DNA of 64,000 nucleotides, from IMG/VR virus record IMGVR_UViG_3300007538_000020, positions 1 to 64,000 of that record; one strand, written 5' to 3'. The DNA comes from a virus. Under the pieces are notes generated by a model. That model was not told the origin of the DNA. It was given only the letters and a program-made list of their open reading frames with translations, and made no database searches. The position numbers and the translations under genes are program-made. Of the stretch, positions 4,833 to 5,500 are shown in pieces; position 1 is the stretch's first letter; every line of letters begins with the position of its first letter.

Positions 4833-5207
4833 GGGGGATATATTAGCATATCGATTGCAATATTGAAGTTTTACAAACAGCCTGTGGATTAACCTATTTT
4901 ACACAGTAAAAATTGATAGGAACTCTTTTTAAATGGCAACTCTAACGTTGTAATTTCTGAGAATAGCGACATTGACGCTATTCTTAATGGGTTTACTGCA
5001 GACCTGGAAACAGAAGCAGTAGAAGCTGAAGAGCTGGCTCTGGTAGCCTAAACTAACTTTTCTTAGTTTAGTAAAACTAAGTGGTGGATGCTTGTCTTCG
5101 GACAGCCCTTTTAGTTTTGGAATTAGACTTTAACTAATTATCCTAAGCTGTAAGTATTTTGTAAAATGAAAGATTGTAAGACAGGGGTTGGAATCCCCTA
5201 TCCTCCA
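4833..5207 (+). ncRNA. ssrA: tmRNA, phage-encoded, with a 38-codon tag frame
   Basis: tmRNA rescues stalled ribosomes by acting first as tRNA and then as mRNA for a degradation tag. The acceptor stem GGGGGAT (4833-4839) pairs with ATCCTCC (5200-5206), with one G-U. The T-arm is AGGGG / CCCCT (5183-5187, 5195-5199). Helix 2 is TTTTACAAA (4869-4877) with TTTGTAAAA (5158-5166). A perfect H-type pseudoknot, CTGTG/CACAG plus CCTAT/ATAGG (4882-4920), precedes the tag. The tag frame opens without ATG at GGC 4935, starts GNSNVV, ends ELALVA, and stops at TAA 5049-5051 inside a 9-bp hairpin (5048-5071). A UUCG-capped stem at 5093-5104 belongs to the downstream pseudoknots. Oddities: the tag is much longer than the Bacteroides GETNYALAA type, and the T-loop reads TTGGAAT. 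CCA is not encoded. The exact resume codon is inferred. Confidence 0.88.
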
Positions 5208-5361
5208 CAGCGTTACTTGATCTAGCTCTAGGAAAGTAACTACTATTGGTAGAAGTTAGCTACACGAATAGTCCTGATGGCTGCTTTATAAGCATAAAAA
5301 GTACTCCATCCACGCAGAGTAGGTGTGCAGATCGATATGAGATCTAAGCTCTGTATTTTTT
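5208..5361 (+). ncRNA. Structured spacer between tmRNA and tRNA
   Basis: No gene was found. Several stems are possible: GTTACTT / AAGTAAC near 5212-5242, ACTATT / AATAGT enclosing GTAG / CTAC near 5244-5275, and a GATC-rich hairpin near 5331-5346. It has a GC-richer, RNA-like composition and ends in a T-run (5355-5362) just before the tRNA. It could be an extra small RNA, a precursor spacer, or a decayed tRNA. Confidence 0.35.
5346..5361 (+). repeat. 16-base direct repeat, copy 1
   Basis: AAGCTCTGTATTTTTT occurs here immediately before the CAT tRNA and again at 5485-5500 after it. The two copies bracket the tRNA. Confidence 0.7.
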
Positions 5362-5362
5362 T

Positions 5363-5449
5363 AGCGGGAATGAAGGCTGGTGGTGATGCCTCAGTAGTCT
5401 CATAAGCTACTAACTTAATTGTGTGTGGGTTCGATTCCCACTCCCGCTT
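5363..5449 (+). tRNA. tRNA with CAT anticodon (Met or Ile2), unusual arms
   Basis: Acceptor AGCGGGA (5363-5369) pairs perfectly with TCCCGCT (5442-5448). The T-arm GTGGG-TTCGATT-CCCAC (5425-5441) is canonical. The anticodon stem GTAGT / GCTAC encloses CTCATAA, giving anticodon CAT. The D-arm is irregular and the variable region is about 14 bases, longer than usual for a Met or Ile tRNA. CCA is not encoded. Whether it inserts methionine, or isoleucine after lysidine modification, cannot be told. Confidence 0.65.
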
Positions 5450-5484
5450 CTATTTATAATTAAACTAAACTAACTATGAAATAC

Positions 5485-5500
5485 AAGCTCTGTATTTTTT
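5485..5500 (+). repeat. 16-base direct repeat, copy 2
   Basis: Exact second copy of the sequence at 5346-5361. Here it overlaps a tiny 12-codon frame beginning at 5476 (MKYKLCIFYLII), which is probably not a gene. Confidence 0.7.

Follow-up and report, generated by a model that had tools for sequence, protein, structure and literature searches.

Phage-borne tmRNAs are well known, with 402 of 18,146 phages reported to carry one (PMC9004378; see also PMC4131195). Why phages carry them is an open question; replacement of the host tmRNA, recycling of host proteins and titration of SmpB have been proposed. The tag is usually a short, interchangeable degron. Reviews give a range of 8-35 residues (PMC3968760, PMC6133939), with 10 the most frequent value in a collection of 97,179 sequences (PMC11915505). 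Host-type tags were read here from Bacteroidota-type tmRNAs on IMG/VR contigs, not from host genomes. The pattern GExNYALAA occurs at 12 IMG/VR loci, of which 11 encode ordinary tmRNAs in one piece whose tags, GENNYALAA or variants of it, are 9 aa long; these RNAs have a glycine resume codon and a canonical PK1. A full-text literature search returned no listing or passage that describes a crAss-like tmRNA (not every match was opened), and tmRNA was not seen mentioned in two main crAss papers (PMC7886860, PMC10136315). Supplements and the tmRNA database were not covered and may already contain some of the sequences.

The window analysed here is a stretch of 64,000 nt from an IMG/VR phage record of 94,981 bp (IMGVR_UViG_3300007538_000020), a virus of bacteria. 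The phage meets Crassvirales criteria and is crAss-like by its terL (phrog_6681), portal (phrog_6547), major capsid (phrog_11589) and DNA polymerase (phrog_1252). The best terL hit is to phi14:2, a Cellulophaga phage in the family Steigviridae of Crassvirales (33.6%), with Flavobacterium Fpv phages also among the nearest, and its DNA polymerase B is closest to Crassvirales. A one-piece tmRNA (phage ssrA) occupies window positions 4833-5207, and very likely (probability about 0.88) it is a functional phage tmRNA of the Bacteroidota type which works with host SmpB and bears an extended degron. Its parts are as follows, each read from the sequence unless another basis is given.

4833-5207, + strand: one-piece tmRNA, mature span, CCA not encoded
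4833-4839, + strand: acceptor stem, 5' strand GGGGGAU, including the G3 that forms the alanine identity pair with U70
4846-4847, + strand: D-loop G18-C19, C19 pairing with T-loop G56
4868-4881, + strand: helix 2, 5' strand GUUUUACAAA + CAGC, pairing with 5147-5150 and 5158-5167; relatives covary
4882-4920, + strand: PK1, H-type pseudoknot, laid out as in Bacteroidota-type tmRNAs
4882-4886 / 4902-4906, + strand: PK1 S1, 5 bp, CUGUG/CACAG
4893-4897 / 4916-4920, + strand: PK1 S2, 5 bp, CCUAU/AUAGG
4930-4934, + strand: resume-codon determinant UAAAU (U-5, A-4); UAAA[UC] or UAAUU in 82/82 relatives
4935-5051, + strand: tag frame, 38 codons GNSNVVISENSDIDAILNGFTADLETEAVEAEELALVA, resume GGC 4935, last codon GCC 5048, UAA 5049-5051
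4958-4986, + strand: 11-bp hairpin within the tag frame (4958-4968/4976-4986); Rfam alignment
5048-5071, + strand: 9-bp hairpin CUAAACUAA/UUAGUUUAG, containing the stop codon
5072-5119, + strand: UUCG-capped hairpin, standing where PK2-PK4 are expected; Rfam match and fold
about 5121-5137, + strand: hairpin AAUUAG/CUAAUU, also in the place of PK2-PK4; Rfam match and fold
5147-5150 and 5158-5167, + strand: helix 2, 3' strand GCUG and UUUGUAAAAU; sequence and covariation in relatives
5183-5199, + strand: T-arm AGGGG-UUGGAAU-CCCCU, with G56 at 5190, not C56
5200-5206, + strand: acceptor stem, 3' strand AUCCUCC, followed by discriminator A 5207

The acceptor is a 7-bp stem of alanine type with G3.U70, a pair that marks the substrates of alanyl-tRNA synthetase. 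ACAG follows the discriminator in the window, and relatives likewise end ACNN. The tRNA-like domain has a T-arm and T-loop, a reduced D-loop, no D-stem, no anticodon arm and an elbow pair, which meets the tmRNA criterion. Helix 2 is 14 bp with an internal loop, GUUUUACAAACAGC being paired to GCUGUAAGUAUUUUGUAAAAU. Between the end of PK1 and the resume GGC are 14 nt, the final five of which are UAAAU; the canonical PK1 at this short distance 5' of the resume codon is inferred from sequence alone. In the place of PK2-PK4 are two hairpins, and pseudoknotting of these has not been shown. Rfam aligns the hairpin at 4958-4986 to the one 3' of the tag in standard tmRNA. An earlier note, written without database searches, had called a tmRNA here from a tRNA-like domain, helix 2, an H-type pseudoknot directly 5' of the tag and a stop codon in a hairpin. 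On re-reading of the sequence the call and all four parts of the anatomy held, with coordinates exact to the base.

The Rfam model RF00023 matches the window RNA over its full length at 33.2 bits (E = 1.6e-11), under the gathering score of 47, and ARAGORN makes no call. The earlier note had proposed both searches and had named the lack of a model hit above threshold as refuting; the result came out so, and is outweighed by the relatives and the architecture. The Rfam cut-off and the ARAGORN call are taken here as detection limits and not as a biological definition, and the window RNA fails both. The cut-off also rejects the phi14:2 tmRNA (46 bits), which ARAGORN accepts. As RF00023 E-values are lax, with tRNA-length matches of up to 35 bits in whole bacterial genomes, the case rests on full-length architecture and relatives rather than on the E-value. 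An alanine-type acceptor with G3.U70, a T-arm and helix 2 come together once in the window and in 0/100 dinucleotide shuffles. On both strands of about 600 kb from related phages this combination was not found elsewhere, and a looser scan of that DNA gave only the window copy. A separate search with a T-arm pattern had 31 chance matches, none with tmRNA ends. The unconstrained MFE fold recovers the acceptor, T-arm and helix 2 (z = -3.98, 0/100 shuffles as good). The pairing tests were script-based, without a covariance model of the full RNA. A relaxed ARAGORN run, which gave many false calls, was disregarded.

The negative ARAGORN result and the sub-threshold Rfam score could also suggest that this is no tmRNA, merely a tRNA-like element beside an ordinary small protein gene. 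That explanation is all but excluded. The tag frame has an in-frame UAG at 4917 and no AUG, GUG or UUG from there to 4935, and an ordinary protein gene was rejected for want of a start codon. Helix 2, PK1, the resume context and the stop hairpin are all there, and homologous RNAs of cultured phages score as tmRNA, that of Fpv20 with Rfam and those of phi14:2 and Calle_1 with ARAGORN.

One reason for the ARAGORN miss and the low Rfam score is the elbow pair, which is swapped from G19-C56 to C19-G56. G19-C56 is present in 58/60 aligned rows, the exceptions being the window, where a T-loop UUGGAAU and a D-loop GC give a swapped yet complementary pair, and one IMG/VR locus, L237, where D-loop CUGAUUUU and T-loop UUUGAUU give A19-U56. 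The elbow pair thus covaries, and the compensation of a tertiary pair on two independent occasions speaks for tRNA-like folding under selection.

The earlier note had also asked for comparison with crAss-like genomes and knew of no described crAss-like tmRNA. The comparison found tmRNAs both in cultured relatives and on IMG/VR contigs, and the statement is partly corrected by phi14:2, a member of Crassvirales whose tmRNA ARAGORN calls. Against RF00023, Flavobacterium phage Fpv20 scores 58.2 bits and Cellulophaga phage phi14:2 46 bits, and related sequences are also present in Cellulophaga phages phi38:1, phi40:1 and Calle_1. Among the records of the latter three only the RNA of the Calle phages is annotated as tmRNA; one tmRNA is also reported in PMC8776804. 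The tmRNA genes of Fpv20 (NC_031912.1, 84536-84950) and phi14:2 (NC_021806.1, 4031-4502) are unannotated in the public records, and the phi14:2 region was formerly annotated with spurious ORFs, since removed. Read from the codon after UAA[AU][UC], the tags are 35 aa (Fpv20), 38 aa (phi14:2) and 30 aa (Calle_1) long. ARAGORN calls the last two tmRNAs but starts their tags too late (GSSVQKLAMVA and AQIEANMEAVNAILNLEVAVGV; L164, L168), and tag lists based on ARAGORN are therefore wrong for these long-tag RNAs.

Fpv20, phi14:2 and Calle_1 have a pre-tag sequence in common, AGAGAUAACUGN{2,8}ACUAAGGUGA, and no fewer than 120 IMG/VR contigs contain it. Of the loci, 80 were examined, which with the three cultured phages make up the long-tag set (L163, L164, L168, L169-L248). 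Loci were chosen by the RNA upstream of the tag, the tag itself not being a selection criterion, and a tag frame follows in 82/83 RNAs; the remaining contig ends within the tag. G3.U70 is present in 73/73 relatives with both ends available, and the UAAAU, UAAAC or UAAUU ahead of the resume codon keeps U-5 and A-4 throughout. There are 60 distinct tags, 59 of them complete, with lengths of 24-49 aa (median 35) and 25 longer than 35. The portal family of the window phage (phrog_6547) is found in 35/36 contigs searched. The long tag is no one-off, and characterises a large set of aquatic phages. One locus, L200, has a 49-aa tag without ANM which ends RQVAIAA.

Within the set the acceptor stems are perfectly paired in 13 different forms and the T-stems in 22. 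Helix 2 covaries across 43 distinct strand pairs, strands pairing with their own partners at a mean of 10.3 bp compared with 7.1 +/- 0.2 for randomly dealt partners (maximum 7.85 in 1000). The tags share a core, Q..ANM..V[FH][SN][LI][LI], and Q..ANM..V is present in 58/59 complete distinct tags. Across 52 distinct cores Q, A, N and M are invariant, yet Q, A and N are each spelled by more than one codon (A = GCU 42, GCA 7, GCC 2, GCG 1; N = AAC 29, AAU 23). Core pN/pS is 0.39 in frame, whereas the two alternative frames give 0.70 and 0.99. The long tag is thus kept as protein sequence by in-frame purifying selection in a large phage set; the pN/pS comparison counts related sequences as independent, ignoring kinship, and is descriptive.

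This conservation bears on a rival reading, in which the extension is a functional peptide that docks tagged proteins to a host or phage partner (an adaptor, a protease, the membrane or RNA polymerase) and so redirects trans-translation. In its favour are Q..ANM..V in nearly all complete tags, four residues invariant over synonymous changes, and the low in-frame pN/pS. Against it, the window tag itself is without the core, the degron end is conserved with degradation as the simplest fate, and no partner has been identified, the peptide matching only tmRNAs in databases. The balance of this evidence tips slightly away from docking. A bolder form remains possible, namely that the extended tag is a conserved functional peptide and not merely a longer degron, which in Bacteroidota would supply a handle that host tmRNA cannot and give the phage its choice of partner or fate. 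Under the preferred reading of an extended degron, the extension may be a second recognition element or a longer handle for proteolysis. The function of the extension is undetermined, and the reason for the length and conservation of the tag is left open.

The window RNA itself is a divergent cousin and not a member of the Q..ANM set. It shares with the set a helix 2 ending CAGC/AAGCUGUA, a GUAAGAC that precedes the T-arm, the same resume context and a 3' end without encoded CCA. Its tag also has the traits of the set, being far longer than the 9-aa host-type tag with a GN start and a hydrophobic VA end. The set's pre-tag motif AGAGAUAACUG...ACUAAGGUGA, which is also missing from the 11 Bacteroidota-type tmRNAs, is absent from the window, where CUGUG/CACAG-CCUAU/AUAGG stands instead. 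The window tag begins GN, ends ELALVA and has a charge of -9, the most acidic seen (family median -2). The Q..ANM core is missing from it, and the profile HMM built from family tags does not recognise it, giving 0.3 bits and placing it at rank 1869 of about 4,930 sequences scored. In global alignment with one family tag, L223 (GNTNNSVVSLEDNAQIAANMNVVDSILNGVINLFSSREELAMVA), it scores 57, where shuffles give 18.7 +/- 6.7 and 0/2000 reach the score; with the ends held fixed, 11/2000 do. No match was found by tblastn with the window tag. A search with the tag of mycobacteriophage ET08 was likewise empty even though ET08 does encode it, and tblastn is therefore uninformative for peptides as short and biased as these. 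Pfam and PDB gave no match to the tag, and the peptide has no database match apart from tmRNAs themselves. The 38-codon acidic frame from GGC 4935 to GCC 5048, ending ELALVA, had been described as unusually long beside short Bacteroidota tags, and all of this held (38 versus 9 residues, the latter from the Bacteroidota-type tmRNAs on IMG/VR contigs). The further suggestion of a different degron or a carrier tail did not fare so well: the ending is a retained degron, which leaves the carrier tail without evidence.

Close relatives of the window RNA were not found with the exact tag DNA, the exact 3' end or whole-region blastn against phages, and some 50 phages with related DNA polymerases, a good part of them only fragments, gave no full-length match. 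Near-identical IMG/VR contigs (L003, L004, L011) stop short of the tmRNA, and the window RNA therefore rests on one contig. The points against the main reading are thus the score under the Rfam cut-off, the ARAGORN miss, the lack of a closer relative, the missing core and the unresolved PK2-PK4. A decayed relic of a captured host tmRNA, now functionless, would be in keeping with the low score, the unusual T-loop, the single contig and the polymerase-close relatives that are without the RNA. Such a relic is very unlikely, as the helices are all intact, the elbow pair is compensated, 38 codons are open, and the homologous class is widespread and under selection.

How a functional tmRNA of this kind would act can only be inferred, from expression and charging through SmpB binding and tagging to degradation. 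Host alanyl-tRNA synthetase is predicted to charge the RNA via G3.U70. A SmpB gene was not found in the window phage and is absent from 21/21 relatives searched, and supply of SmpB by the phage itself was rejected. As the phage encodes none, host SmpB, EF-Tu and RNase/CCA-adding enzymes would serve the phage RNA. The RNA would enter ribosomes stalled on truncated mRNA, the frame would switch to GGC 4935, and alanine plus a 38-residue tag ending ELALVA would be added before release at UAA 5049. The hydrophobic-A-V-A/A-A C-terminal ending would retain the protease degron, and the 25-30 residues ahead of it may be a phage addition to a 9-residue host-type tag. Alternatively, the RNA could be a decoy that titrates SmpB or blocks host trans-translation rather than performing it; such a role has been put forward for a molecule of mycobacteriophage DS6A that consists of the tRNA domain alone (PMC4131195). 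The intact SmpB-binding tRNA-like domain and the absence of a phage SmpB would allow this. The decoy is unlikely, in that it needs no tag, yet the resume signal, open frame, degron ending and, in the relatives, the protein sequence of the tag are all kept.

Additional information can be garnered from the region 3' of the tmRNA. Window positions 5208-5345 are non-coding with several hairpins and match no Rfam family. Beyond them a tRNA-like gene lies at 5363-5450, with acceptor AGCGGGA/TCCCGCT, anticodon loop CUCAUAA (CAU), a variable loop of ~13 nt and a perfect T-arm; ARAGORN misses it, and it matches the tRNA-Sec model weakly (28.3 bits). It is flanked by a 26-nt direct repeat, 5336-5361 / 5475-5500 (TATGAGATCTAAGCTCTGTATTTTTT / TATGAAATACAAGCTCTGTATTTTTT, 88%), which may be a processing or transcription signal.

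Relative to the literature searched, the tag length, its protein-level conservation, the swapped elbow pair and the wide extent of the long-tag set are new. A tag four times longer than the Bacteroidota-type tag departs from the usual short degron, and its conservation as protein across a large set of phages offers a way to test what it does. Cultured hosts make such tests feasible, with Flavobacterium psychrophilum for the Fpv phages and Cellulophaga for phi14:2 or Calle. ARAGORN and Rfam miss such tmRNAs or mis-start their tags, and counts of phage tmRNAs and lists of tags are in consequence too low and partly wrong.

Among known systems, the DS6A molecule (PMC4131195) is likewise a phage-borne tmRNA-like domain but has no tag frame. 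Pelagic myophages such as Melnitz (PMC9004378) likewise encode tmRNAs and are aquatic; their genes are permuted and two-piece, whereas the window gene is one-piece. The mycobacteriophage Bxz1/ET08 tmRNA is also phage-borne, lies beside tRNA genes and has a long acidic tag, ATDTDATVTDAEIEAFFAEEAAALV (25 aa), which is a precedent among phages; it differs in host phylum, shorter tag and alanine resume codon, with no sequence relation seen. Standard Bacteroidota tmRNA (RF00023; for example L289-L296 and L298-L300, with GE[NTSE]NYALAA tags) resembles the window RNA in being one-piece, with a G3.U70 alanine acceptor, a helix 2, an H-type PK1 that immediately precedes the tag, GGC for glycine as resume codon, a stop in or near a hairpin and an A-rich hydrophobic tag end. 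The window RNA departs from it in a tag of 38 rather than 9 residues, the swapped elbow, the hairpin in the tag frame and the score under the family cut-off. The long-tag phage tmRNAs have their own pre-tag motif and the Q..ANM..V core, whereas the window RNA is without that core and its PK1 is canonical. They resemble the window RNA in having tags that begin GN, GK, DN or DK and end [V/L/I/M]AA or MVA, the same resume context, the CAGC/GCUG helix 2 end, no CCA, and the phrog_6547 portal.
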